From a virus, in IMG/VR virus record IMGVR_UViG_3300037114_000008, positions 1 to 26,632 of that record: a stretch of DNA of 26,632 nt, one strand, 5' to 3'. Made by a program: the position numbers and the translations under genes. The stretch's first letter is position 1, and every line of letters begins with the position of its first letter. Below the pieces are notes generated by a model. It saw nothing but the letters and a program-made list of their open reading frames with translations, did not search any database and was not told the DNA's origin. Below, piece after piece: positions 1 to 24,302 of this stretch.

Positions 1-1200
1 TGGCGGTCGGCACCTACGCGATCACGGGTGACGCCGCTGCGCTTCTTTATCATCACGTTCTCGACTTCGCGGTCGGCACCTACGCGATCACCGGATCGCC
101 GTTGGCCTTCGCCGATATGCTCGGGCTGACTCCGGGCGCGTACACGATCACGGGTGACGCGGCGGCGCTTCTCCGCAAGCGTGTGTTGGATTTCGCAGTC
201 GGCACCTACGCGATCACCGGCAGCGCGGCATTGCTCGAAGGCGTTCTCGACATGGCGGTCGGCACCTACGCGATCACGGGTGACGCCGCCGCCCTTCTCT
301 ATCACCACGTCCTTGACTTCGCGGTCGGCACTTACGCGATCACCGGATCGCCGTTGGCCTTCGCCGATATGCTCGGGCTGACTCCGGGCGCGTACACGAT
401 CACGGGTGACGCGGCGGCGCTTCTCCGCAACCGCGTGTTGGACTTCGCAGTCGGCACCTACACGATCACTGGCAGCGCGGCATTGCTCGAAGGCGTCCTC
501 GACATGGCGGTCGGCACCTACGCGATCACGGGTGACGCCGCTGCGCTTCTTTATCATCACGTTCTCGACTTCGCGGTCGGCACCTACGCGATCACCGGAT
601 CGCCGTTGGCCTTCGCCGATATGCTCGGGCTCGCGCCGGGCGCGTACACGATCACGGGTGACGCGGCGGCGCTTCTCCGCAAGCGTGTGTTGGATTTCGC
701 AGTCGGCACCTACGCAATCACAGGTTCCCCGCTGGCCTTCGGCTATACGCTCGGGTTCGCGCCGGGCGCGTACACGATCACGGGCGACGCGGCGGCGCTG
801 TTCATTGCGCGTGTGCTAGACGAAGCGGTCGGCACCTACGCGATCATGGGCGATGCGGCGGCGCTTCTCTACAATCGCGTGTTGGATTTCGCGGTCGGCA
901 CTTATGCAATCACCGGCTCGCCGTTGGCCTTCGCCGATACGCTCGGGTTCGCGGAGGGCACCTATGCGATCACGGGCGACGCCGCCGCGCTTCTCTACAA
1001 TCGAGTGTTGGATTTCGCGGTCGGCACCTACGCGATCACCGGATCGTCGTTGGCCTTCGCCGATATGCTTGGGCTGACTCCGGGCGCGTACACGATCACG
1101 GGCGATGCGGCCGCGTTGCTCACCGCGCACCTACTCGACTTCGCGGTCGGGTCCTACTCGATTACGGGCGACGACGCGGCCCTCCTTTACAATCGCGTGC
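1..1200 (+). repeat. Coding tandem repeats with 252-bp higher-order period
   Basis: Within the repeat gene the DNA itself repeats with a 252 bp period: the string gacatggcgg recurs at 249 and 501, and bases 1-126 match 505-630 (offset 504, twice 252) with no difference that I can see. The period equals four protein units of 22+20+22+20 residues. The near-identity of neighbouring copies points to recent duplication or ongoing homogenisation by recombination. The copies toward 1200-1500 are more diverged. Confidence 0.85.
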
Positions 1201-1748
1201 TCGACGAAGCGGTCGGGTCCTACTCGATCACCGGCAGCGATGCGCTCCTTCAAGTTTTGAGCGGCGCGTACCTCGACGAAGCGGTCGGGTCCTACTCGAT
1301 GACCGGCAGCGACGCGGCGCTTCTCTACAACCGAGTGCTCGATGCGCAGGCCGGGTCCTACTCGATGACCGGCGCAACCGCCGAGTTCGAGGAAGTCGTG
1401 GAGTTCGGGATTGCGGCCGGGTCCTACGAAATGACCGGCGCGCCCGCAGGCTTACTTATGACGCACATTCTATCGTGCGAGACCGGATCGTTCTCAATGA
1501 ACGGGAGCGATGCGAACCTGATCGTATTCAACCCCAACGCGCCGCCGCCGACTCCGCCGGAGCAAGAGCAGATGGGGCGCGGGGGTGGATCGGCCCCGAA
1601 GGCGGTCTATGCCGATACTTTGGAATTGTTCCGTGGAAAGAGCTTCGATAGAGGCGTCCGCAGCATGGTCCCCCCGCGCTCAATCGCCGATAGAAACCTC
1701 ACCACTCCCGCCCATACTTGGGCGCGGAAGCCGCCACCAAAGACTTGA
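1..1748 (+). CDS. GxYxITG tandem-repeat structural protein (5' end outside window)
   Basis: The reading frame is open from the first base of the window, so the gene begins upstream; it ends with TGA at 1746-1748. It encodes about 24 copies of a 20-22 residue unit with core G-[TAS]-Y-[ATS]-[IM]-T-G followed by a D/S-A-A-A-L-L-type stretch and V-L-D. Units alternate 22 and 20 residues, and four make an 84-residue (252 bp) super-repeat. Near the C-terminus the units drift to GSYSMTG and end as GSFSMNG. The last roughly 70 residues are non-repetitive, Pro-rich then basic. Beta-rich repeats of this GSYxITG type are known to me from other phage virion proteins of alphaproteobacteria; the exact role (head fibre, decoration or tail fibre) is not known. 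It lies just upstream of the scaffold, where portal-side head genes usually sit. Its stop codon forms part of a TTGACA box. Confidence 0.85.
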   Translation, partial: AVGTYAITGDAAALLYHHVLDFAVGTYAITGSPLAFADMLGLTPGAYTITGDAAALLRKRVLDFAVGTYAITGSAALLEGVLDMAVGTYAITGDAAALLYHHVLDFAVGTYAITGSPLAFADMLGLTPGAYTITGDAAALLRNRVLDFAVGTYTITGSAALLEGVLDMAVGTYAITGDAAALLYHHVLDFAVGTYAITGSPLAFADMLGLAPGAYTITGDAAALLRKRVLDFAVGTYAITGSPLAFGYTLGFAPGAYTITGDAAALFIARVLDEAVGTYAIMGDAAALLYNRVLDFAVGTYAITGSPLAFADTLGFAEGTYAITGDAAALLYNRVLDFAVGTYAITGSSLAFADMLGLTPGAYTITGDAAALLTAHLLDFAVGSYSITGDDAALLYNRVLDEAVGSYSITGSDALLQVLSGAYLDEAVGSYSMTGSDAALLYNRVLDAQAGSYSMTGATAEFEEVVEFGIAAGSYEMTGAPAGLLMTHILSCETGSFSMNGSDANLIVFNPNAPPPTPPEQEQMGRGGGSAPKAVYADTLELFRGKSFDRGVRSMVPPRSIADRNLTTPAHTWARKPPPKT

Positions 1749-3316: not shown

Positions 3317-3351
3317 CGCGTTTACCGGGTTGCTTCGCGAAGCAAAACGCG
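3317..3351 (+). promoter_or_regulatory. Hairpin with TTGCTTCGCGAAGCAA palindrome
   Basis: A perfect 16-bp palindrome TTGCTTCG/CGAAGCAA (3330-3345) is flanked by outer arms CGCGTTT (3317-3323) and AAACGCG (3345-3351). No T-run follows, so it is more likely an operator or a leader RNA structure than a terminator. Confidence 0.5.
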
Positions 3352-3488
3352 TTAATCATACCAGCATCGAAATCAGGTCCCATCGTTTCTTGAGCCTCAT
3401 GGCAGTGCTCGATGCGCCCGGACCAAAATACCCGATACCTCCATGGGGAGGCCGGAGCTATCCAGTTTCACCCCTTGGAGGCAGTGCC

Positions 3489-4670
3489 ATGGCTAACGTA
3501 TCCACCACAATCTCAGACGTTATCGTCCCCGCGATCTTTACGCCGTACACCCAACAGTTGACGATGGAGAAAACCGCCATCGTCCAGTCGGGCATCGCGG
3601 CTCGCGACGACTTCTTGGACAACCTCCTCGCTGGCGGCGGCTTGACTTTCACGGTCCCGTCTTGGCAGGACATCGGTGACCCGGCGGAAAACGTCGGCTC
3701 CGACGACCCCAATTACGACTCGACCCCGAACATCACTGGAACGTCAGCCGAAGTCGCGGTTCGACTTTCCCGTAATAGTTCGTGGAGCACGATGCGCCTT
3801 GCGACGGCCTTGGCCGGTGCCGACCCGATGCAGTCCATCGCATCGCGCGTCTCCGACTATTGGGTCCGTCGTCTACAGCGTGCTTTCGTCGCCGTAGCCA
3901 ACGGCGTGTTCTTCACCAACGCCTCGGCCAACGCGGGTGCTACCCCGGGCGGCTTGGGCCTTGCCGCTCAGTACGGCAATCAGGACGACCTGACTCATGA
4001 CATTTCTGCCTCGGGCTATAGCTCGGGCGTCACCGACTTCAACGCGGAGGCGTTCATTGACGCCTGCACGTTGCTCGGCGACGCGGCCGAAGATGTGACG
4101 GCGGTGTTCATGCACTCCATCGTCTACTCGAAGGCTCAGAAGAATAACCTGATCGACTTCATCCCGGACGCGGAAGGACACATCAACATCCCGGTGTTTT
4201 TGGGTCGCCGTGTCATCGTGGACGACGGAATGCCCAACCCGGCGGGCGACACGTCCAACAACGCCAACACTGGCGGCGGCTCCGGCCTCTACCACACTTG
4301 GCTCGTTGGACCGGCCTCGTTCCGACTCGGCGTCGGCACCCCGGTCGTCCCGACCGAAGTGTTCCGTTACCCGTCGCGCGGCAACGGCGCGGGCTCGGAC
4401 ACCCTGTTCAACCGCGTCGAGTGGGTCATCCACCCGGTCGGCCACGCGTGGGTCGGTTCTTCGCCTCACTATGAAGGCGGCCCGACGAACGGTCAGCTTT
4501 CGGCCAGCGGCTCCTTTGTCCGCGTGTTCCCGGAACGCAAGCAGATCAAGCTCTCCCGCCTGATTACGCGCGAGTCCACCAGCGGCTACGCATGGACGGC
4601 GGACCCGAGCGACGGTCAGAACTTGGCGGTCTTTGGAACCACGGCGGCAACCGCGAACACTGGTCCATAA
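3489..4670 (+). CDS. Major capsid (coat) protein, HK97-fold type
   Basis: The product is 393 residues. ATG 3489 is preceded by TTGGAGG (3475-3481), so I reject the in-frame start at 3330. The N-terminus (TTISDVIVPAIFTPYTQQLTM, then a segment on a region between capsid surfaces, FLDNLLAGGGLTFTVPSW) and the middle (AVRLSRNSSWSTMRLATALAGADPM, then a YW-R-LQRAF--VANGVF helix) match the layout of the coat proteins of many alphaproteobacterial phages: N-arm, E-loop-like strand pair, spine helix. HK97-fold coat proteins form the icosahedral shell. No maturation protease domain is visible. A strong SD, a long private leader and terminators on both sides fit a very highly expressed gene. The family call rests on remembered sequence pattern and position. 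Confidence 0.87.
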   Translation: MANVSTTISDVIVPAIFTPYTQQLTMEKTAIVQSGIAARDDFLDNLLAGGGLTFTVPSWQDIGDPAENVGSDDPNYDSTPNITGTSAEVAVRLSRNSSWSTMRLATALAGADPMQSIASRVSDYWVRRLQRAFVAVANGVFFTNASANAGATPGGLGLAAQYGNQDDLTHDISASGYSSGVTDFNAEAFIDACTLLGDAAEDVTAVFMHSIVYSKAQKNNLIDFIPDAEGHINIPVFLGRRVIVDDGMPNPAGDTSNNANTGGGSGLYHTWLVGPASFRLGVGTPVVPTEVFRYPSRGNGAGSDTLFNRVEWVIHPVGHAWVGSSPHYEGGPTNGQLSASGSFVRVFPERKQIKLSRLITRESTSGYAWTADPSDGQNLAVFGTTAATANTGP

Positions 4671-10091: not shown

Positions 10092-10604
10092 ATGACGAGT
10101 CCCCCCAAAGAACAAGGCTTGAGCTTGGCAGACATCGCCGACATCGGGGAAGATGTCGAAGTCGGCGACGGCAAAAAACTCAAGGTGAAAGGTATCTCGG
10201 CAAAAGGCTGTCTCATTCTTATAGTTCGTTTCCCCGACATGCAGCGGTGGCTTAGTGGTGACATCATTTCTATCAACGATGTTGTCTTACAAGCGCCAGA
10301 AGCGGTCGGTGCAATCATCGCAGCCGGAACGGGAAATCCGGGCGATCCAGATAGTGAAGAAATCGCGAGCGGCCTGCCAATCGAGACGCAAATAAACATA
10401 GTCGAGGCGGTCTTTAGGCAAACCTTTAGGAGTGGCTTCGGCCCTTTCGTATCGAGGGTGCTCCGTATGCACGAGGCCGCCGTCGCAGTCAAATCAGGAA
10501 GCGATGGCAAGGGCCCGGATATGAAATCGCTGCCGGAGTCGAAGCCCTCATTGCCAATGGACACCCCACAAGCGTCGTCTGGAACTACACCCCTCGCCAA
10601 ATAA
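10092..10604 (+). CDS. Tail assembly chaperone, short (zero-frame) product
   Basis: The product is 170 residues, with GGAG (10077-10080) upstream of ATG 10092. The pattern VKVKGISAKGCLILIVRFPD, then QAPEAVGAIIAAGTGNPGD, then FRQTFRSGFGPFV is that of pre-tape-measure chaperones of siphophages (functional analogues of lambda gpG). The C-terminal 35 residues (after the K-G-P at about 140) are Ser/Pro-rich and lack family character, as expected where the overlapping -1 frame carries the conserved sequence. The slippery heptamer GGGCCCG lies at 10511-10517 in the right phase. Chaperones coat the tape measure before tube polymerisation and are absent from the finished virion. Confidence 0.8.
   Translation: MTSPPKEQGLSLADIADIGEDVEVGDGKKLKVKGISAKGCLILIVRFPDMQRWLSGDIISINDVVLQAPEAVGAIIAAGTGNPGDPDSEEIASGLPIETQINIVEAVFRQTFRSGFGPFVSRVLRMHEAAVAVKSGSDGKGPDMKSLPESKPSLPMDTPQASSGTTPLAK
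10511..10517 (+). promoter_or_regulatory. Programmed -1 frameshift slippery site GGGCCCG
   Basis: In the chaperone frame the codons are AAG-GGC-CCG, that is G-GGC-CCG, an exact X-XXY-YYZ heptamer. The -1 frame is open from 10430 (after TAG 10427-10429) to TAA 10739-10741, so the shift must happen between 10430 and 10604; this is the only heptamer of that form I found in phase there. Confidence 0.75.
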
Positions 10605-11251: not shown

Positions 11252-14200
11252 ATGGCCCTAGAAGATGTAGTTCAAGGCGTACAGGTCAGCGTCAAGACTG
11301 ACGGCGTCGATGACGCCGTCAATAAAATTGATGGCGTGACGAAGGCCGTTGAGAACCTTGCCGCCGCCGGTAGCAAAGCGAGCGGTGGCGGCGGCGGCAT
11401 TGAGGGCCTGAATACCGCGTTCAAAAATATCGGAACGACAGCCGCGCAGTCCTTCTCTCAAATTCTTAGCAGTGCGACCAGCGGCAACTTGACCGGCCTC
11501 GCGACTTTGATGGGCGGCCCGGTCGCCGGGTCTTTCACTCAAGCCGCCGAGCAACTAAGCCAATTCATTGACCAGCAAGACGCCGCCATCCTCAAGACCG
11601 CCTCGATGGCGAGGGCGATGGGGACGACGCCCGAGGTTATTCAAGGCATGGGCGCGGCGCTTGGGGAAGCCGGGGTTAGCGCGTCAGGATTTGAACGCCT
11701 AGTCAACCGCATGTCCACGCGGGTCGCGACCGACTATGCGAGCATGATGAAAAACATTCGCACTGACCATGATACCGCCGCGTCCTCGGCGCTCCGTGTC
11801 ACCAAAGCTAACGAAAAGTTGCAAGAGTCCTACGGCGTTCCGAAGGAAGCATTCGCGGAGCAGGATAAGTGGATCGCACAGCAAGAGGCTCAGATCGCAA
11901 AGAACGAGGCGATAGAGGCGCAGCGCGAACAAGCACTCAAGAGTATCCCGAACATCACTGAGAAACTCAAAGAGGGCATCAAAACACACAAGGAGTCGGC
12001 GGATGTTGCCGATACCGACATTCAAACCCTAACCAAGTCTCTTGAGAACCTCGCACGAACCGGAACTGGTCCCGCGTCGGGGCTAGATGTTATCCAAAAA
12101 CTATTTGAGGGCATTCAAACTGGCGCTATTGGCGCAGAGAAGGGGCTCGCCCTAATCAAAGCAGAGATGGGGTCTATGCGGGCAGGCGGCGCTGGCGGCA
12201 TGGACGCCGAGAAGCTCCTCAAATTCGCGCAAGACGGCGGGCTGGCGAAAATGCAGGCGGCTACCGCCGAAATCGCTGCACATGGTTTAGGTATTACGAA
12301 GCAGGATGTCGATAACGCAGAGAAGGCGGCGGCGGCGGGTGCGAAACTTCTGCAAGTTATAGACGCGATGAAAGAAAAAAGCGCCGCCGCTATCGCCCCA
12401 ATTAAAGCAGTCGCCGAAACCAATGCAGCACATAATTTAGAACAACTCCCGGGTATTGTAGACGCTATAAGTTCCGCAACGAAGGGGGCGGCGGACTGGA
12501 TGAAGTCTCTCCTGCCGCAAGGACTTATTGATTTTTTTACCAAGCCAACGGGGGCCACCCCCTTTCACGGATTGGATATTTTGCACGGGGGCGGCCCGTT
12601 AACGGGGGGTCCGTCGTCCGGTACTCCCGGCACTCCCGGCATTGTTCGGCCGGGCGATAAAGATGACCCTAACTCACCTATAAAGGTACTTCGGTTCGGT
12701 CACTCTAACCAGCCGGGGCCCGGCGTAAAGACGGAGCAAACATCCGGCACAACTCGCATCTATCATCTGCCGGACGATGGTGCTGCGCCGATGGCTGGCG
12801 GCGGACAGCCGCTCCCGCCAGAAGGCCGTGGCTACGGCGGAGGCGCGGCCGTTGACATCAACGCCAGCGGCGCTACAGTCAGCGGCGCGTTGAACTCCCT
12901 TGCTGGCGTCATCACTGAGGGCGCTGCTGCTATTAAGGCTGCGCTTGGCGGCCTCGTGGTGCATACAACGTCCGGTGCCCCTAACACACCGACTGGCGAC
13001 CAAAGTAGACGCGATGCGAGAACGTGGCCCGGCGGCGGCGGCGGCGGCCCGGTCACACATGAAACCATATCTGTAACCGATCCAATGAATGCACCATGGC
13101 GCACGGGCGGAGCAACAAATATGCTTCCCCCGGTAGGAACGGAAGGCGCGGGCGATGCTCGCGTCGGCTCGGGGCCCTCGGGAGAGCCGCCTCCGCACCC
13201 GGAAGCCGATGCCGCTAATATGCCTACATCTACATCTAAAGAGATTTCGGGCCGGGAAGTAGCCACCGCGCTAAAACAAGCTGGCGCGGACAGTATAGGC
13301 GGCGGCGCTTCGGGCATTAGTTCGGCGTTTACCTCCGTGGCATCAGCTATAGGCGGCGGCGGCACGTCAGTTGCATCGGCGCTTATGTCCTTAGCGAGTA
13401 AATTGTCATCATTAGTTCCGAACCCCAACGCCGTTCCCGGTACTCCCGGCACTCCCGGCTATCCCGGCACTCCCGGCGCAATGCCCGGACCCCCGAGTCC
13501 GCGACCGTTGCCGTATGGGGCTACTGTGGGTGCGAAGGACATCGTCATAGGAAATAATCCGGGAGGCTCCATTGATGTAGCCGACAGCTACTGGCAGCGT
13601 ATCCACGACAAAAAGGACAAGGTGCATTTCAGAGGAGATTGTGTTTCGGCCTGCGTCATGTCAACGGGACTTCCCTATAACGAGGGGTGTGTCGAGCCTA
13701 CCGCACGTTTCGGAATTCACATGGCCTCGACGAACGGCGTACCAGACCAACAGGCAACCAACGCGATGGTCGCGAAGTATTATCCTGCGAAATTGCAAGA
13801 TTATATCAAGACCCATCCGCTTCGACCGGACGTTCAGTATTTGAATGCAGCCATGATTACCGCTCTTGGAATTTTCCCGCCGTGCCCCGCCGACTCTAAA
13901 AATATACCGCAGGGGAGACAACCTCATTTCTGTGAGGGGGGTATCTGTGATGGTGTAGTTCGCGGTCCCGGCACCGACGTAAGCGACAGCGTTCTTGCGC
14001 GGCTCTCGAAAGGTGAGTTCGTCATGAGGGCGGCGGCGGTGCGCGCCTACGGCGAGGACACCATGCACGCGATGAACAACATTCAAATGCCGTCGCAGAG
14101 GTACGCGATGGGCGGCATGGTTCCCACTTCCTCGCTACCTTACTTCGCGGCGGGCGGTGCGATTGAGAAGGCAGACTCGATATTGAACCTGACCATCGGC

Positions 14201-14317
14201 GATCAGACGTTCGACGGCCTGAAAGTGCCAGACAATGTCGCGGCAAAGCTTAAGCAGTTCGCTATCGGCCAGCAAACATCTTCGACTGGCCGCAAACCTA
14301 GTTGGGCCGCAGGATAA
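11252..14317 (+). CDS. Tail tape measure protein with embedded ClpP-like domain
   Basis: The product is 1021 residues; ATG 11252 is one base after the preceding stop, with GGCGGGGG just upstream. By the lambda rule of about 1.5 angstrom per residue, the tail could reach about 150 nm, less if globular parts do not stretch. Order: helical N-terminus (1-180), charged coiled coil (about 180-255), Ala-rich helices (to about 420), Gly/Pro-rich linkers (about 440-760) with collagen-like G-x-P runs near 454 and 728-750, then a ClpP/crotonase-like domain (about 760-885). The last 115 residues (GPGTDVSDSVLARLSKGEFV, then AAAVRAYGEDTMHAMN) are the typical C-terminus of siphophage tape measures. The gene follows the frameshifting chaperone as expected. 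The tape measure call is firm; the peptidase activity is inferred. Confidence 0.87.
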   Translation: MALEDVVQGVQVSVKTDGVDDAVNKIDGVTKAVENLAAAGSKASGGGGGIEGLNTAFKNIGTTAAQSFSQILSSATSGNLTGLATLMGGPVAGSFTQAAEQLSQFIDQQDAAILKTASMARAMGTTPEVIQGMGAALGEAGVSASGFERLVNRMSTRVATDYASMMKNIRTDHDTAASSALRVTKANEKLQESYGVPKEAFAEQDKWIAQQEAQIAKNEAIEAQREQALKSIPNITEKLKEGIKTHKESADVADTDIQTLTKSLENLARTGTGPASGLDVIQKLFEGIQTGAIGAEKGLALIKAEMGSMRAGGAGGMDAEKLLKFAQDGGLAKMQAATAEIAAHGLGITKQDVDNAEKAAAAGAKLLQVIDAMKEKSAAAIAPIKAVAETNAAHNLEQLPGIVDAISSATKGAADWMKSLLPQGLIDFFTKPTGATPFHGLDILHGGGPLTGGPSSGTPGTPGIVRPGDKDDPNSPIKVLRFGHSNQPGPGVKTEQTSGTTRIYHLPDDGAAPMAGGGQPLPPEGRGYGGGAAVDINASGATVSGALNSLAGVITEGAAAIKAALGGLVVHTTSGAPNTPTGDQSRRDARTWPGGGGGGPVTHETISVTDPMNAPWRTGGATNMLPPVGTEGAGDARVGSGPSGEPPPHPEADAANMPTSTSKEISGREVATALKQAGADSIGGGASGISSAFTSVASAIGGGGTSVASALMSLASKLSSLVPNPNAVPGTPGTPGYPGTPGAMPGPPSPRPLPYGATVGAKDIVIGNNPGGSIDVADSYWQRIHDKKDKVHFRGDCVSACVMSTGLPYNEGCVEPTARFGIHMASTNGVPDQQATNAMVAKYYPAKLQDYIKTHPLRPDVQYLNAAMITALGIFPPCPADSKNIPQGRQPHFCEGGICDGVVRGPGTDVSDSVLARLSKGEFVMRAAAVRAYGEDTMHAMNNIQMPSQRYAMGGMVPTSSLPYFAAGGAIEKADSILNLTIGDQTFDGLKVPDNVAAKLKQFAIGQQTSSTGRKPSWAAG
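13529..13900 (+). other. ClpP/crotonase-like domain inside the tape measure gene
   Basis: Residues about 760-883 of the tape measure. P770-G-G-S773-I-D is the oxyanion-type NxPGGS motif; a strand VHFRGDCVSAC places S799 at the usual nucleophile position; FGIHMAS gives H823, 24 residues later, near the 25 between the catalytic Ser and His of E. coli ClpP; D850 (QDYIKTH) is a candidate third residue. Cysteines 797 and 801 flank S799, as in the C-x-SAC motif of bacterial secreted ClpP-like proteins. Members of that group show the same V-x-P-x-A-x-x-G-x-H and YP----D-I--H pattern. Confidence 0.65.
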
Positions 14318-14783: not shown

Positions 14784-17726
14784 ATGACCGACGAACTTAC
14801 CACTCCCGAAATCACCGGAGTAGCCAGCCCCGGCGACGGCGAAGGCACCGGCATGGGCACCACATCGCCCGGCTATGCTTTGCCATTTCTGTTCGCTTGG
14901 GTGAACTCGGATCAAACCACGTTCGACGAAACGATGCTTCGTAATGACGAGGAAATTCTCGAAATCAACTTGCAACATGAAGAAGGTCAAGTTCCGACAC
15001 TATCGGTCACGATCAAAAATCCGTACACGGGTCTCCTTAATGCGACCCGTCATCAATGGGCGTGGCTCGCATATCAGCCGCCGAACCTTGATCCATACGC
15101 GGAAGGGACTTTCAGCGGCCCGGGGGACTTCACCAATATCCCGAACGGCTATGGATCGAGCGGCGCAACCGATCTTGCGCCTGAAACTGTCGAAGGCACC
15201 CCCGAGTACGTCGTGGATGGCTATGTGCAGCCGGGCTATCAGGTCTACGATGACGCAACAATCATTCTCGTTCCGCCGATCCCCTCGTCGTCGAACCTTG
15301 GCACTTCGCCGTCCCCTTCCGGCGGAGCGTCGGGCCCCCCGCCATACACGAATGGCAACACCGTCGTTCCGATATTCTTCGGCGAACTTATAGGCGTGCC
15401 CGATGATCTGTTCGCGGAAAAGATCACACTCAAATTCCTTGCACGCTCGGAGAACTACATCCAGTGGAAACAGGCGTGTGCCGAGACGTTGAAAATCCCC
15501 GGGAATTACGATCCGGTTTTCCTAAAGGAAAAGGAACAGGATAACCCTGACAGCATCCTCGAAGGATGGTCGTCGCTATATCATGTGGACCGTTGCTCTC
15601 TCGAAGTGACAGCAAGCGACGTGCTGGTCGGCGAGGATGGCACTGTGGTATTCGCCGAGTCGCCGCCAAGCGCGATCTACGACAGTGTGAAAGTCAAGAT
15701 CGGGCAGGCCCCGCTCACCAACGTGCAAGTGCAGACGACGGTTCATTGGATGCAGCGGACTACGGGCTACGTGGACGGCCCGGATGTGAGCGTCGCCAGC
15801 TATACCGGCGGGTCCTTCGCTGACGACTGGCCGAAGCCGGGCAAGGGTCTTGGCGCTGGATGGACAGTCGAGACGAGCTATGTTGATGACCCCTACACGA
15901 TCAAAGAAACCCCGATGTGGAACATCACGACCGACACACAATTCTACGGCACTCTTACCGATTATGATTGCGCCACCGTGTCGATCAACGAGTCATCAAG
16001 CCAGCCCGCGTTGCTCGGCCCTGTTTGGACGGCGGGTGGTGGCATCCCTACCGTCATCACAACAGGTCAAAGCAGCTTCTGTGATCCGTATTCCATCCCG
16101 CCGACCAACATACCAGCAAAGCTAGTAGAGAAGCTTCTTTACGTGCCGCTGTGGGGCTTGAACTGTTCGTGGGAGCTAAAGTATGAAGCGAAGCGCGAGT
16201 TCACCGAAGTCATCTTTGTCGATGTAACCGCCAACACGCAAGCCATCCTCACATCGCCGACCGTCGAGCAGGACACCGCGCTAATCAAAATGAATGGTGA
16301 AGTCGGCGAGCCGTTGCTTATCTATGACGCTTGGTCAGATTTTGCCGGGGGAAAACATTTCGGTAAGGGCCAACTTATTTACCCGAACAACCCGCTCACG
16401 CCGGGCGGGCTGGCATACCAAATTAGCCTTGGTCCCGGAACAGGCGGCAATGTTGAGCCCGATTTCAGTGATGTACCCGGGGCGGTAACGGCAGAAATTT
16501 CTCCGGGCACCGGGTCGTGGGTTTCACTCGGCGAGAACCCGCAAGCCAAAATTCAGAAAATGGCGTTCGCTACGAACTATGACGTTGGTACGATCTTGCT
16601 CTATGCAGATACAGTTTTTAATGGCGGCCCGGGCTCGCTCGAAGATGTCGTCCCCCCGAGCACATCCTATTGGATTTGCACCGCCGAGGCGGGTACAACA
16701 GGAGCGGCGTTATCGGACTCTGCGGGGGCGGTCCCCAATGTAGGCGAGGGCGGCGAAGGTGAATTCACCGTAGTTCAATACCGTCCTCTGCCCACCGAGA
16801 GCGATCAACTTCTATTCCCGCCAGCCCTCACCATCACCGGCGTTCCTTATTTTGATCCTAACTCCGATGCCGTCTTAACTTCGATCAATTGCACCGATTT
16901 CACGATTATTTCAGGGGGAGCGGCGGGGGTCGCTGGAATGGCGGTTCTCGGCAGTGTACCCGGCATCCCGGTCGGCGGCACGGCGGATAACGTCACGGCG
17001 CGGTGCTACTTCCCAACCGCACGCGGGAAAGAGTCAATCGAGTACGCGATCAACCGTGCTCGGGCCAAAATTCGGATGCGCTCGCGCGCTCTAGAAGTGT
17101 CATGGGCGTGCCCGATTGAAATGGTGCTCGGCATGTCCTGCCGAATGAATGCGACACTGTATGAGCCGCGCCTGCCCGGCGGCGTCGCCACCGGCAAGGT
17201 CATCAAGTACGGGATGACCGCGAGTAAAGGCAAAATTCGGGGGAGTGTTACAATCGGATGTTCGGTAGGCTACAATGCTTTCGGATCGCCGAACGCTGAC
17301 ATTTCGTACACCGGGGCCGTGTTCGAGCCGTTCGATGACGGGCTGCAATTCCCGCTCGGTGATTTACCGTCCGATGGTGGCTTCTTCACCGAGACGCTCC
17401 CCACTCAATACGCGGCTCTTGAGCCGGGTATCTTGGCTGAATTGATTTCCATGAAGATTTTGAACCCGCCGCAGCCAATCACGCCGGTGCAAAGCGGCGT
17501 CGGTGGCGAGACCATCGTTACCACAGGGGTTGGCCCGGCAACGGTGTGGACAGCGGCGGTGGACGCGGCGATCCTACCGAACCTTATGAAAAGCAATCCG
17601 ATTGGGTGGATTTGCGAAATTGACTCGGTCGTAAACGGGCCATTCCTCGGCGCGTACACCATCACTGTGAGCCCCCTTGAACTGCCGCAAGGCGTCAACC
17701 TCTCAGCACCGGGAGACAATGACTAA
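14784..17726 (+). CDS. Tail hub / tail tip protein
   Basis: The product is 980 residues; ATG 14784 follows one base after the previous stop. Residues about 30-90 (LPFLFAWVNSDQTTFDETML, then ILEINLQHEEGQVPTLSVTIKNPYTGLL) and about 190-290 (VPIFFGELIGVPDDLFAEKITLKFLAR, then YHVDRCSLEVTASDVLVGEDGTVVF) correspond to the split beta-barrel hub of tail tip proteins related to gp27/gpD-type hubs. The middle is a long beta-rich, Gly-rich section. Residues about 740-830 (YFPTARGKESIEYAINRARAK, then EVSWACPIEMVLGMSCRM) look like the end of the hub ring. It would form the trimeric tip that holds the tape measure end. No lysozyme-type motif is seen. Its stop overlaps the next start (TAATG). Confidence 0.7.
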   Translation: MTDELTTPEITGVASPGDGEGTGMGTTSPGYALPFLFAWVNSDQTTFDETMLRNDEEILEINLQHEEGQVPTLSVTIKNPYTGLLNATRHQWAWLAYQPPNLDPYAEGTFSGPGDFTNIPNGYGSSGATDLAPETVEGTPEYVVDGYVQPGYQVYDDATIILVPPIPSSSNLGTSPSPSGGASGPPPYTNGNTVVPIFFGELIGVPDDLFAEKITLKFLARSENYIQWKQACAETLKIPGNYDPVFLKEKEQDNPDSILEGWSSLYHVDRCSLEVTASDVLVGEDGTVVFAESPPSAIYDSVKVKIGQAPLTNVQVQTTVHWMQRTTGYVDGPDVSVASYTGGSFADDWPKPGKGLGAGWTVETSYVDDPYTIKETPMWNITTDTQFYGTLTDYDCATVSINESSSQPALLGPVWTAGGGIPTVITTGQSSFCDPYSIPPTNIPAKLVEKLLYVPLWGLNCSWELKYEAKREFTEVIFVDVTANTQAILTSPTVEQDTALIKMNGEVGEPLLIYDAWSDFAGGKHFGKGQLIYPNNPLTPGGLAYQISLGPGTGGNVEPDFSDVPGAVTAEISPGTGSWVSLGENPQAKIQKMAFATNYDVGTILLYADTVFNGGPGSLEDVVPPSTSYWICTAEAGTTGAALSDSAGAVPNVGEGGEGEFTVVQYRPLPTESDQLLFPPALTITGVPYFDPNSDAVLTSINCTDFTIISGGAAGVAGMAVLGSVPGIPVGGTADNVTARCYFPTARGKESIEYAINRARAKIRMRSRALEVSWACPIEMVLGMSCRMNATLYEPRLPGGVATGKVIKYGMTASKGKIRGSVTIGCSVGYNAFGSPNADISYTGAVFEPFDDGLQFPLGDLPSDGGFFTETLPTQYAALEPGILAELISMKILNPPQPITPVQSGVGGETIVTTGVGPATVWTAAVDAAILPNLMKSNPIGWICEIDSVVNGPFLGAYTITVSPLELPQGVNLSAPGDND

Positions 17727-17983: not shown

Positions 17984-19861
17984 ATGTCAGTGTCTCAGTA
18001 TTCCCGCGCAACGCACACCGTTCGTGTCAAGAGTGCGGACGAACGGTTTTACGCCGATGTCGAAGTTCTCGACGCGATTTCGCTTACCCTCCCGAACAAC
18101 TTTCAGATTGCCTATAAAATCTCCAAACCGAACGTCAACGCGCCCAACATCACCGACAACACGGGGGACGGTAACGGTGAGCCCGGCAAGGAGTCATCGA
18201 CTCGGGCTTCGCATATGATGCGGGTGACAAGCACGGCAAACCCGGCGATGTTTTTCGATGTGGAAGTGTGTGACGCGTTCACGATCACCGGCCCGAACAA
18301 TGCGGATTTTTGCATTGCGTGTCAGACTCCCAATCCGAAGTCGGTCGTGGCGATCACGGACACAACCGGCAGCGGCTTGGCGGTCGGGGCCACCAATGGA
18401 TCGACCAAGGCACAGCACGCGGTCAAGCTATTGCGCCAAGTCGGCAGCGGAACACCCGGGCTGGCTAATCAGCAAATAGCGACTGACTATACGTTGACGC
18501 TTCTGACGGACGCGTTTGTTGAACAAGGTCCGTTACAAACTCTAGGAATGCCGTGGCTGATACCCACCGCAGACTTCGGCGGCCCCGGCGATCCCCCCGG
18601 ATACACTGACTGGAATTCGGGACCGTGGTACGACATGCACGTTTTGCAATTCTACAACTATGACACCGTGCTTAACGGCGCGCTGTCGCCGGGCGCGAAC
18701 ACACTCGACCTAACTCAGTACGTGACCGATCCCGGCACGGGTCAGCAAGTGCCGCCGCCGAACACTGACCCGAACGTCTATGTCTACTTCCCTGACAACA
18801 CCGGGGGGCCGTTCCTCGGCGCGACGCCATACACGGCGAGCGGCTTACCCGGCAATCAAGCATCAATGTCAATTCCAGCAATCGACATGGGGCCGATTTG
18901 GTGGATACGCGCGCTCGGGGCAGTAGACAATGTTTGGTTTTGGTATCTCAGCCCGGTGCAACAGCCGCTCGATCTTTCCTACTTTAGACCCGGCGGACCT
19001 TCCGAAGCCTTCGCGTACTTAGGAGGGTGGGGCTATAGCGGCTTCACCGCCCTTCCTTATTTCTCGGTGACGTATATTTTGGCGGTGAACTATTCTTTTA
19101 TCCCACTTGGAACTTACGGCGCGGACAATCTTGCTACCGCCGCGTTAGATCAAGACGGACTCTCTTGGATGGGTGTTGGCACCCCGGATGGAGGGTGGGG
19201 CGTCGCGAACACCGCAGTAACGGGGGTGGCGGTTGCCGGGTTACCGTCTTTTATTGTCACGCTCGATCCCTACTACACGCCATACGGAGCGTTTGATTTG
19301 ACTGCGCCGACTGCGGCCGAACTCCTCAAGTACGCGACAAAATTTGGACTTGAAAAGGCTTACACCAACTACGGCGGACCGATGCCGAATGTGTGGGAGC
19401 TAACGGGTATCCAACAACCGGGATTGACAAACACAACGCCGCCGCCGGGATCGCCGCCGGGGACGCCCCCTCCCGATTGGGACCCGACCACGAACCCACA
19501 TCAACAGCCGGGTCTCGCGTTGGCGAAACAAGTCTGTCAGAAGTTTGCCGATAACTGGAATGCAGTGGCGAACGCGATCCAAAATCTATTTGGGAATGTC
19601 AATTCGGAGACAGGCCTCGTCGGTACACTCATCCCGCCGCCCGGGTGGAATTGGGCGAAGCCCTATGGGGGCAGCACGGTGGCGACCGCGCAACAATTCT
19701 CAAACGGGTGGATCGTCCCCGCCGTCATGGAGCTATGCGAGACGGTCCCGACGATTGCCGTGGGGCAGCTTGACCCCTCGGTGTGGGATGTCTCGCCAGT
19801 CGTAAATAACGGCACTCAGCCGGTCACATGGGCAAGCGAGACGCCACCACCCCCGGCTTGA
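17984..19861 (+). CDS. Tail-tip protein with N-terminal repeated module
   Basis: The product is 625 residues and starts 3 bases after the previous stop. The N-terminus has two clear copies of a 40-residue module: R8-A-T-H--RVKS------DVEVLDAISLTLPNN and R74-A-S-H--RVTS------DVEVCDAFTITGPNN, each ending in a YKI/ACQ-type strand and followed by an ITD-TG linker. A weaker third copy seems to start at KAQHAVKLL near 140 and ends with TDYTLTLLTDAF. Residues about 200-470 are aromatic-rich and beta-like (WWIRALGAVDNVWFWYLSP, GGWGYSGFTALPYFSVTYI); then a Pro-rich linker (about 475-510) and a C-terminal helical part. I do not recognise the large domain. Its position after the hub suggests a tail tip or fibre attachment part. 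Its TGA is part of a TTGACC string before element C. Confidence 0.6.
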   Translation: MSVSQYSRATHTVRVKSADERFYADVEVLDAISLTLPNNFQIAYKISKPNVNAPNITDNTGDGNGEPGKESSTRASHMMRVTSTANPAMFFDVEVCDAFTITGPNNADFCIACQTPNPKSVVAITDTTGSGLAVGATNGSTKAQHAVKLLRQVGSGTPGLANQQIATDYTLTLLTDAFVEQGPLQTLGMPWLIPTADFGGPGDPPGYTDWNSGPWYDMHVLQFYNYDTVLNGALSPGANTLDLTQYVTDPGTGQQVPPPNTDPNVYVYFPDNTGGPFLGATPYTASGLPGNQASMSIPAIDMGPIWWIRALGAVDNVWFWYLSPVQQPLDLSYFRPGGPSEAFAYLGGWGYSGFTALPYFSVTYILAVNYSFIPLGTYGADNLATAALDQDGLSWMGVGTPDGGWGVANTAVTGVAVAGLPSFIVTLDPYYTPYGAFDLTAPTAAELLKYATKFGLEKAYTNYGGPMPNVWELTGIQQPGLTNTTPPPGSPPGTPPPDWDPTTNPHQQPGLALAKQVCQKFADNWNAVANAIQNLFGNVNSETGLVGTLIPPPGWNWAKPYGGSTVATAQQFSNGWIVPAVMELCETVPTIAVGQLDPSVWDVSPVVNNGTQPVTWASETPPPPA

Positions 19862-20771: not shown

Positions 20772-23700
20772 ATGACCAGCCCAACACTCCGCTCATATGG
20801 GGTCGCAAACTCGGAGAACGGCAGCGCGTTCGGCGCTATCTCCCTCACCACAGTCACCAACGACATCGTCGTCGTTGCCGCGAGTTTCTTTACGAACCAG
20901 CCCGAAGCGGATGTCGGCGTCTCCGGGATAACCGGCGGCGGCGTTACCGGATCGTGGACGTTGCGTAATCGCACGTATATAACGTGCAATGACGGCGTTC
21001 CGCTGATCCAAGAAGTGTGGTGGGGCCTCGCCACCACCGGAGCCTCGTCAGTCACGGTGGCGATCAACAACGCGACCACCACCTACGATACCTGTATGGT
21101 TTTCAGCGTTGCGGGCGCGAAAACAACCGCGCCTTTCGATGTCAACGTCTCATTGCCTGCCGTCGCTTCCTCCCCCGAAAGCTCACAGGTCACGACTCGC
21201 AATGTTACGGGTGTCTCGACCACCGCCAGCGGCACTTTGTTGATCGCAATACTGACAGGAAATAACGAGCCTAGCTCGATACCCGTCGCTTATGCCACGG
21301 CGGACAGCGACTTCACGCTAATCGCGGCGGATGGCGAGCAGGCAGCGTCTTTTTTAGGGGCGGGTTCGGAGTATCAGGCCCTATCGGGTCCAATCACAAG
21401 TCAAACATTCAATCTTTTTGCGGGCTTGGACTCGACCGATTGGATTGGCTACGTAGACGCAATCCAAGCTGCGGTGATCGCGGGCCCCACCGGCACTTGG
21501 GCTTCGACCGAAGCAGCCGACGCGATGGCCGCGCACGGCGGCGTGCTCGGCGGTTCGTGGCACTCGACCGAAGCCAAGGACATCTTCGATTTTACTTCGG
21601 CGCACCCAAGCGGTACGTGGGGCTCGACCGAAACGGCCGACACTCTCGCGGCGGCGGGCACCGGCGCGACGGCGACGTACTTCGATCCCGCTACCGTGTC
21701 GGAAGGCGTCTCCCTTCAAAACGATAACCTGACCGCGATCAATCAGGAGGCGTTCAACGAGTCAGTCGGCGCGCGGTCGAACACATTCAAAACTACCGGC
21801 AAGTTCTACACCGAATTCTCGGTCGAGTTTGAGGCAGGCGAGTCGGGTGTTGGCGTCATAAACGCTGCGGCGGCGTTCGGGAATTGGGCCAATCCCGTAG
21901 GACCGGCCACAAACGGCGCGGGCGTTTTCGCCAGCGAGAACGGCACGATTTGGATCAACGGTCAGGATATGTCCAATTGGGCCGGGACAAGTTTGAGCAG
22001 CAACACTCAAGGTTTGGGTCCTAATGATAATACGGCGGTCAATGTCGGCGTCGCCATCGACCTTGACAACAACCTGATTTGGTTCCGTGTCGCGGGCGGC
22101 CTATGGAACGGTATCTCGGGAGCGAACCCGGCAAACGGTGTGGCCTCACCACGACCGCCGACAACGGGCCAGCCGCAAGAGGGGTCCGGCGGCTACGATA
22201 TTTCCATGATTACCGGCTCCGCGATCTATCTGTTCGCCGGGCTTTACGGGCCAGAAGATACTGCCATGCTGAATGCCGGGGCTTCGGCATTCGCCCACAC
22301 GCCTCCATCCGGCTTCTCGGCTTGGGACACCGCGACACCGCCAGCGTCTCCGCTCATGATCGACGGCTACGCGACCGGCGGCGCGGCGGGCGGCGGCCCG
22401 TTCGACACGACGGGCATTGACTCGGCTACTGTCACGCTCACGACCACACAGCACAACGACGTGATCGTCGTCGGAATTACAGCCGGTGGCGCTTATACGG
22501 CGTCGCCGATCACAAGTATCACTGACACGGCCGGGCTGGTATGGAAGCGGCGCAATCAACGCTGGCAGCAAGGTGGTCTTAAGGCTGGCCCCGGCACGGA
22601 AATCAATAAAGGGGCCATCGTGGAGCTTTGGTGGGCGCACGCGCCGAACCCGCTATCGGGCGATGTCATCACCGTCCACGCGACCGGCGGCGAAGGCGCA
22701 TTCGCCGTCCTTGCGTTCGGCGTCGCAGGGGCGAACTACACGACGCCTTTTGATACGCATACGCAAGCCGGGGGGTATGTCGATGGCAGCGGCGGTTTCT
22801 TTAACCCCTCCGTGTCGCAACTCGCCACGAATGCAGACAACACTCTCTTGTTTGGATTTCACGGTATAGGTGTGACTTATGCCGGTGACGGGGGCGTCGC
22901 GCAGGACCCGTGGACTTATGTCACGGCGACCGCGCTTGAAACTGAGACTGATGGCTACGGCGTGTTCGGGAGTCTCGTCTATCAGACTGTGACGGAGCCA
23001 CAGTTAGGAACGGCGGTGTTGGTCGGCGGTCCAATTTACGCTGGCACAGAGCAGCCCTACAGTTCCGCAGGGGTTATGTTTGACAGCATCGTCGCGGCAG
23101 GCGAGAGCGGCACTGCGGAGGAAATCTATTGGTTTTGGGATAACGGTTCCGTCAGCGGCTCCATTCAACTTTCCACCACGACTGATCTTGTGTTGACCTA
23201 TACGGTGGTGAACTTCAACCTCATGGTCCTAATTCAAGTCATGATAAAGTCTGCGAGCGGGACCGGCGAAGTCACGTCTATCTCGGAAGGGCAAGGCTCA
23301 CTCTCGTCGGCTGGCTTCGAGCGGCGCTCGCGCGTCGTGACGGCGACCCCGGGTGGCACCATCGCTACCGAAATTTGGTGGGGATGGATGCCGATGTATA
23401 CGCAAGCCGAACTTGCGACCAACGACACGATCACGATCAACACGTCGGGCACAGCGGCGGGCGACCTTATCGCCGCGCAGATATTGGGCCTCGGCGGCTC
23501 GACCGGCGCATATGGTCTAGGCGATGCGTTTTGGGATACGAACCCGGCTCTCCCGGTAGAGGTTGGTTGTGTCGGCGCTTCGCCGCCGCCGAACGCCTCA
23601 GATATTTCCACGTCGGAACTCTCGACGTTGTTGGTCGCGTGGACATCGAACCTCACCGAAGCGGTGCCGGGCTTCACGGAGCCATTTGTCGCGCTCACCC

Positions 23701-24302
23701 TAGACACCCCGAACACCATCCTGCCTAGGATGCAATACGCGTCAGACGCACCGCCGGTTTATATGGGCTTCGAGTACCTGTACTCGTCGGGGCTGGCGTC
23801 GGACGAGACCGCCGAATTCTTGCAATCGCCGGAGCCCGATGGATGGATCGTGATCGCCGACGCGATCCCGGTCGGACCGCCGCAGCCGCCGACCGGCGTG
23901 TGGGAGTCCGTCGAGCACACGGATGTTTGGAGCGCGCACGGGTTCGTGCCGGTGCAAGTCGCGTGGCACTCCACCGATCACGCCGACGAATTCACGGGCG
24001 CACCCGGGTTCGCGCCCTACTTCGGCGAAGGATGGCTCGGATGGGTCAAGGCGTATGCCGCTTGGGCCTCCACCGAGCACAAGGACACGATGGGCTTCTC
24101 GGGATGGCTCATCAACAACCGGATCACGGGCCAGATGGGCGCATACGAGTCCGACGACCGTCTGTCTCTCAGCAATCGCTCGACCGTCACGGGAACGTGG
24201 GGGTCGGTAGAATACAAGGACCGCTGGTCATCGGCGGGCTTTGAAATTCCCAAGGCTTATCCGCCCGCCGCCATCAAGCGGAGGCTTCTGATTATCACCT
24301 AA
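20772..24302 (+). CDS. Large mosaic tail fibre protein with SPRY-like domain and WxSxExxD repeats
   Basis: The product is 1176 residues; ATG 20772 follows AAGGCGAG (20759-20766). Order: a beta-sandwich (1-236); three GTWxSTExxD units (about 240-300); an SPRY-like beta domain (about 300-520: TGKFYTEFSVEFEAGESGVGV, then GTIWINGQ, NVGVAIDLDNNLIWFRVAGGLWNG and IYLFAGLYGPED); a second sandwich (about 528-770) and a third (about 773-1035), each with VEL/TEIWW-G-type strands that recall the first, so probably duplicated; then four more W-x-S-x-[ED]-x-x-D units and one degenerate unit (about 1040-1165). It is the largest protein here and looks assembled from repeated modules, as for receptor-binding fibres. 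Ligand unknown. Confidence 0.72.
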   Translation: MTSPTLRSYGVANSENGSAFGAISLTTVTNDIVVVAASFFTNQPEADVGVSGITGGGVTGSWTLRNRTYITCNDGVPLIQEVWWGLATTGASSVTVAINNATTTYDTCMVFSVAGAKTTAPFDVNVSLPAVASSPESSQVTTRNVTGVSTTASGTLLIAILTGNNEPSSIPVAYATADSDFTLIAADGEQAASFLGAGSEYQALSGPITSQTFNLFAGLDSTDWIGYVDAIQAAVIAGPTGTWASTEAADAMAAHGGVLGGSWHSTEAKDIFDFTSAHPSGTWGSTETADTLAAAGTGATATYFDPATVSEGVSLQNDNLTAINQEAFNESVGARSNTFKTTGKFYTEFSVEFEAGESGVGVINAAAAFGNWANPVGPATNGAGVFASENGTIWINGQDMSNWAGTSLSSNTQGLGPNDNTAVNVGVAIDLDNNLIWFRVAGGLWNGISGANPANGVASPRPPTTGQPQEGSGGYDISMITGSAIYLFAGLYGPEDTAMLNAGASAFAHTPPSGFSAWDTATPPASPLMIDGYATGGAAGGGPFDTTGIDSATVTLTTTQHNDVIVVGITAGGAYTASPITSITDTAGLVWKRRNQRWQQGGLKAGPGTEINKGAIVELWWAHAPNPLSGDVITVHATGGEGAFAVLAFGVAGANYTTPFDTHTQAGGYVDGSGGFFNPSVSQLATNADNTLLFGFHGIGVTYAGDGGVAQDPWTYVTATALETETDGYGVFGSLVYQTVTEPQLGTAVLVGGPIYAGTEQPYSSAGVMFDSIVAAGESGTAEEIYWFWDNGSVSGSIQLSTTTDLVLTYTVVNFNLMVLIQVMIKSASGTGEVTSISEGQGSLSSAGFERRSRVVTATPGGTIATEIWWGWMPMYTQAELATNDTITINTSGTAAGDLIAAQILGLGGSTGAYGLGDAFWDTNPALPVEVGCVGASPPPNASDISTSELSTLLVAWTSNLTEAVPGFTEPFVALTLDTPNTILPRMQYASDAPPVYMGFEYLYSSGLASDETAEFLQSPEPDGWIVIADAIPVGPPQPPTGVWESVEHTDVWSAHGFVPVQVAWHSTDHADEFTGAPGFAPYFGEGWLGWVKAYAAWASTEHKDTMGFSGWLINNRITGQMGAYESDDRLSLSNRSTVTGTWGSVEYKDRWSSAGFEIPKAYPPAAIKRRLLIIT

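Follow-up and report, generated by a model that had tools for sequence, protein, structure and literature searches.

A tape measure protein (TMP) with a ClpP-like domain lying just ahead of its conserved C-terminus is encoded in a 26,632-nucleotide viral sequence (IMG/VR record IMGVR_UViG_3300037114_000008), the whole of which is referred to here as the window. The presence of this domain within the TMP is confirmed and is not a chance resemblance. The original prediction, made from the DNA sequence, had read the segment as a ClpP/crotonase-like peptidase embedded in the TMP, and overall that reading is supported, the peptidase activity and its target being putative.

The tape measure gene and the site of insertion

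The genes and regions of the window on which the comparison is based are as follows.

3330..4670, + strand: major capsid protein (phrog_247, 1.4e-95), used as bait for sister phages
10092..10604, + strand: pre-tape-measure protein, upstream of the TMP gene (PF23789, E=1.6e-14)
11252..14317, + strand: TMP gene, 1021 aa, with inserted domain (ORF, PHROG matches, homologous TMPs L066 and L068)
13418..13513, + strand: Pro/Gly-rich linker (PGTPGTPGYPGTPG), approximately residues 723-754, before the domain (from sequence)
13529..13885, + strand: ClpP-like domain, TMP residues ~760-878 (leave-one-out HMM, AlphaFold2, Foldseek)
13952..14305, + strand: conserved C-terminal module of the TMP, residues 901-1018 (~43-66% identity to ~20 sister TMPs)

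Judged by its sequence, the 1021-aa product is a TMP, since residues 890-963 at its C-terminus match phrog_3547 (9.2e-15) as well as other tape-measure PHROGs, and a pre-tape-measure gene lies upstream. Three large plus-strand genes follow it (14784-17726, 17984-19861 and 20772-24302); their products of 980, 625 and 1176 aa match no PHROGs or Pfam family at the limits used and are presumably tail or tip proteins. At the beginning of the window, positions 3-1748 (+) hold an open frame of many near-identical AVGTYAITGDAAALLY-type repeats, for which family matches are only marginal.

Two further contigs carry the fusion ORF with a DNA identity of 99.99%, both differing bases lying in the linker. 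A chimeric assembly is therefore unlikely and was rejected. Together with the window these contigs represent one phage species, the only one from which the fusion is known. Sister phages were fetched by means of the capsid protein, which in the window is ~53% identical to Nipunavirus capsids, and the comparison covered the 80 closest of the 421 capsid relatives. The C-terminal module of the TMP is common to sister phages in which the ClpP-like domain is absent. Two of their TMPs, L066 and L068, align with the window TMP on both sides of the domain (41-45% in the N-terminal part, 54-66% in the C-terminal part) and have other sequence in its place, as expected if the domain was inserted into a variable linker immediately ahead of the conserved C-terminus, which is where the original prediction had put it. 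Nowhere is the TMP less conserved than in this linker region. A search of 50 viral and 80 sister loci gave no other TMP fusion, and Pfam showed no domain in the ten sister TMPs that were checked.

Homology and predicted fold

A profile of the relatives from which the window had been excluded, the kind of HMM check that had been suggested for this segment, matched the TMP with E=3.2e-20, the next best ORF of the window reaching only 0.09. A second match in the window, on the minus strand at 2796-2909, carries stops and was taken as chance. Two PHROG models, which were made independently, match the domain segment: phrog_19619 (5.3e-4) and phrog_5410, annotated 'ATP-dependent protease' (8.3e-4). 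When the profile of the 43-row alignment was compared with all PDB sequences it matched ClpP chains only (best E 1.2e-4), whereas a PDB phmmer search with the single domain sequence gave no match. Alignment with E. coli ClpP places the catalytic Ser on S799 and the His on H823 (E 8e-4, a weak score alone), and alignment with the ClpP subunit of a Pectobacterium phage gives E 1.1e-7. In Pfam and NCBIfam there was no match to the domain in the window, and Pfam CLP_protease matches one of the 43 aligned sequences. The whole TMP also matched 479 phage records, mostly from Mycobacterium and Gordonia phages. These were not counted as ClpP relatives, because the domain alone matches only four phage records, all of them separate genes.

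The domain is predicted to have the spiral beta-alpha fold of the ClpP/crotonase superfamily, in agreement with the original reading. With the 43-sequence alignment AlphaFold2 gave a model of mean pLDDT 90.5 and pTM 0.83; with the single sequence of the domain the model was unusable (pLDDT 31.6). The best 50 Foldseek matches in the PDB were ClpP structures without exception (best E 8e-6, probability 1.00), with TM-scores of only ~0.5 (TMq) because the domain is shorter than ClpP. In a viral library the third Foldseek match was a free protein of Rhizobium phage Paso. The predicted fold and the aligned Ser and His are shared with ClpP (MEROPS S14) and the wider superfamily. In contrast to ClpP, the window domain lacks the first beta-alpha unit, has no Asp that is conserved across its family, is unmatched by Pfam CLP_protease and gives no indication of ring assembly or of an AAA+ partner.

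The predicted Ser/His centre and the cysteines

Conservation was counted over 41 non-redundant sequences, and the positions of interest are listed below.

13562..13567, + strand: Gly771-Gly772, aligned with the ClpP Gly-Gly of the oxyanion region (invariant, 41/41)
13646..13648, + strand: Ser799, predicted nucleophile, in G-D-C-V-S-A-C (invariant, 41/41; on the ClpP catalytic Ser)
13718..13720, + strand: His823, predicted general base, in F-G-I-H (invariant, 41/41; on the ClpP catalytic His)
13829..13831, + strand: Asp860, candidate third residue in place of D850 (Asp in only 14/41 sequences)
13640..13885, + strand: stretch with four family-conserved cysteines, C797, C801, C813 and C878 (41/41, 41/41, 37/41 and 37/38)
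13931..13948, + strand: cysteine pair C894/C899 (HFCEGGIC), right behind the domain (missing in sister TMPs; not typical of the family)

The motifs GG771-772, GDCVS799AC and FGIH823 lie where they had been read, with Ser and His 24 positions apart, and these two residues are completely conserved; G795, C797, A800 and C801 are likewise invariant (41/41). The proposal of D850 as the third catalytic residue did not hold, this position not being conserved. D860 sits in the region of the ClpP Asp and is the better candidate, although itself only partly conserved. The safe claim is therefore a Ser/His pair, and members of the family may be dyads or inactive, since the triad Asp is not common to all of them. 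The window copy departs from two near-invariant residues (D794 to R and T802 to V). These changes, together with the long branch of this copy in the tree, could mean that its function has been altered or lost.

The TMP has six cysteines (797, 801, 813, 878, 894 and 899), all in or beside the domain, and cysteines are absent from 17 of 18 sister TMPs. S799, H823, the Gly-Gly and the four conserved cysteines have been retained in the window despite only 31-35% identity to the nearest relatives.

Free-standing relatives and possible origin of the domain

The domain belongs to phrog_19619, whose members are small, phage-encoded and exported, and share four conserved cysteines; membership was taken as a profile match to phrog_19619 plus these cysteines, and the window domain has both. 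The proteins of this group, among them Paso gp11, the 'signal peptide protein' of phiN3/phiM7 and those of BDU-MI-1 and NMeng1, share with the window the GG, G-x-C-x-S-A-C, a further C, the H, a final C and a minimal length. Each of them has its own gene, and a signal-like N-terminus is present in nearly all, whereas the window domain is internal to the 1021-aa ORF, after a Pro/Gly linker, and has neither a gene of its own nor a signal peptide. Proteins of the same kind are carried by isolated phages of Sinorhizobium, Agrobacterium, Bradyrhizobium and Nostoc, and many of those in isolates are annotated 'signal peptide' or 'secreted'. Among viral contigs ~40 distinct relatives were detected, every one a free ORF and none a tape measure, and by a simple hydropathy test 37 of 40 free relatives have an N-terminal hydrophobic stretch.

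In the tree the TMP domain falls among the free phage copies L160, L164, L014 and L167 (support 98/91), a placement to be read with caution as its branch is long (2.16) and the bootstrap not settled. A free relative lies directly upstream of the capsid gene in the sister phages L104, L106 and L089, the copy in L089 being partial and at a contig end. In L104 (1272-2883) and L106 (150-1758) the region just upstream of the capsid gene is a cargo island made up of a 375-aa ORF that by eye resembles a glycosyltransferase, and of the free exported ClpP-like gene.

Kinship with exported ClpP-like proteins of alphaproteobacteria, suggested at the outset, is upheld. Three larger bacterial ClpP-like proteins (L017, L019 and L020) have the same Ser/His motifs as the window domain; L019 is above the Pfam CLP_protease cut-off. 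In contrast to it, all three are cellular genes, and their products are longer and include additional parts as well as the first beta-alpha unit. In one 8-Mb genome (G370) of the class searched, the exported ClpP-like family is represented by four diverged members (L037, L051, L053 and L054). Relatives of the domain on two Rhodobacterales plasmids (L200:2806-3387 and L201:3001-3375, the latter at a position where no gene is listed) adjoin mannose-1-phosphate guanylyltransferase genes, which relate to polysaccharide.

Possible function of the domain

It is proposed that the domain was captured, and that the TMP delivers a periplasm-adapted hydrolase at entry, an explanation for which we consider the balance to be even. 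A siphophage ancestor would have taken the ClpP-like domain from a small exported phage protein of the phrog_19619 kind and placed it, minus the signal peptide, in the variable linker of the TMP just upstream of the C-terminal module. In the virion the TMP would occupy the tail tube, its C-terminal end at the tip and the domain close by; on infection the TMP would be expelled into the cell envelope and the domain would enter the periplasm. There the four conserved cysteines may pair in the oxidising environment, and the putative Ser799/His823 centre could hydrolyse an envelope protein or peptide, aiding entry. For the free relatives, export would be the route to this compartment.

The location near the tip, entry to the periplasm, the disulfides and an envelope substrate are suggested by analogy. 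Published work locates the C-terminus of the TMP in the tail tip, with the proposal that this end leaves first (PMC11445458). In T5 a muralytic metallopeptidase close to the C-terminus of the TMP is cleaved off (PMC10038345), and motifs of the TM4 TMP that are akin to host proteins hydrolyse peptidoglycan and help to infect stationary cells (PMC1796659). The TM4 TMP (PMC1796659) and T5 pb2 (PMC10038345) resemble the window TMP in having an enzyme-like domain inside the tape measure, which in T5 pb2 is also near the C-terminus (PMC10038345). The domains of TM4 and T5 act on peptidoglycan, whereas that of the window has a predicted serine peptidase/hydrolase fold. A more specific form of the proposal, which we advance only tentatively, is that the TMP bears a virion-delivered periplasmic serine hydrolase acting on host envelope proteins and not on peptidoglycan, a phage protein exported after infection having been converted into an enzyme that is pre-loaded for entry.

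Some proteins with the ClpP/crotonase fold are known to lack activity, and the domain might be a pseudoenzyme that has kept the fold and, without catalysis, serves as a plug in the tail tip or binds a polysaccharide or a protein of the envelope. The variable third catalytic residue of the family and the presence of R794 and V802 in place of near-invariant residues are compatible with this, but a purely structural role would not need the Ser, the His and the oxyanion-region Gly-Gly that are invariant in 41/41 sequences, and we regard it as rather unlikely. It is less probable again that the domain cuts the TMP itself at assembly or ejection and so frees the C-terminal module, as in T5 pb2. The T5 TMP is cleaved beside its enzyme domain (PMC10038345), a similar cleavage has been proposed for JBD30 (PMC11445458), and the window domain directly precedes the conserved C-terminal module. 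However, sister TMPs with the same C-terminal module are without the domain, so processing does not need it, and the exported, Cys-rich character of the family suits the periplasm and not the cytoplasm in which tails assemble. That the domain was inserted in frame and simply tolerated, as a passenger without function, would fit with the low conservation of the linker and with the restriction of the fusion to one phage species but is improbable, as the catalytic and cysteine positions are all retained at 31-35% identity and over a branch of 2.16.

Significance

To our knowledge, the tape-measure enzymes described so far act on peptidoglycan. As the original prediction had supposed, no tape measure with a ClpP, crotonase or protease domain was found by title and abstract in the open-access literature. 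In the other viruses examined the domain occurred only as a separate exported protein, and this virus may therefore load such an enzyme into its tail for action in the bacterial envelope. If the proposed delivery is true, a ClpP-fold domain in the TMP would widen what tails bring into the envelope. The fusion also provides a handle on the role of the widespread exported phage ClpP-like proteins: the domain is free and exported in some phages and virion-borne in a close relative, so an activity assay and a point mutant would inform both.
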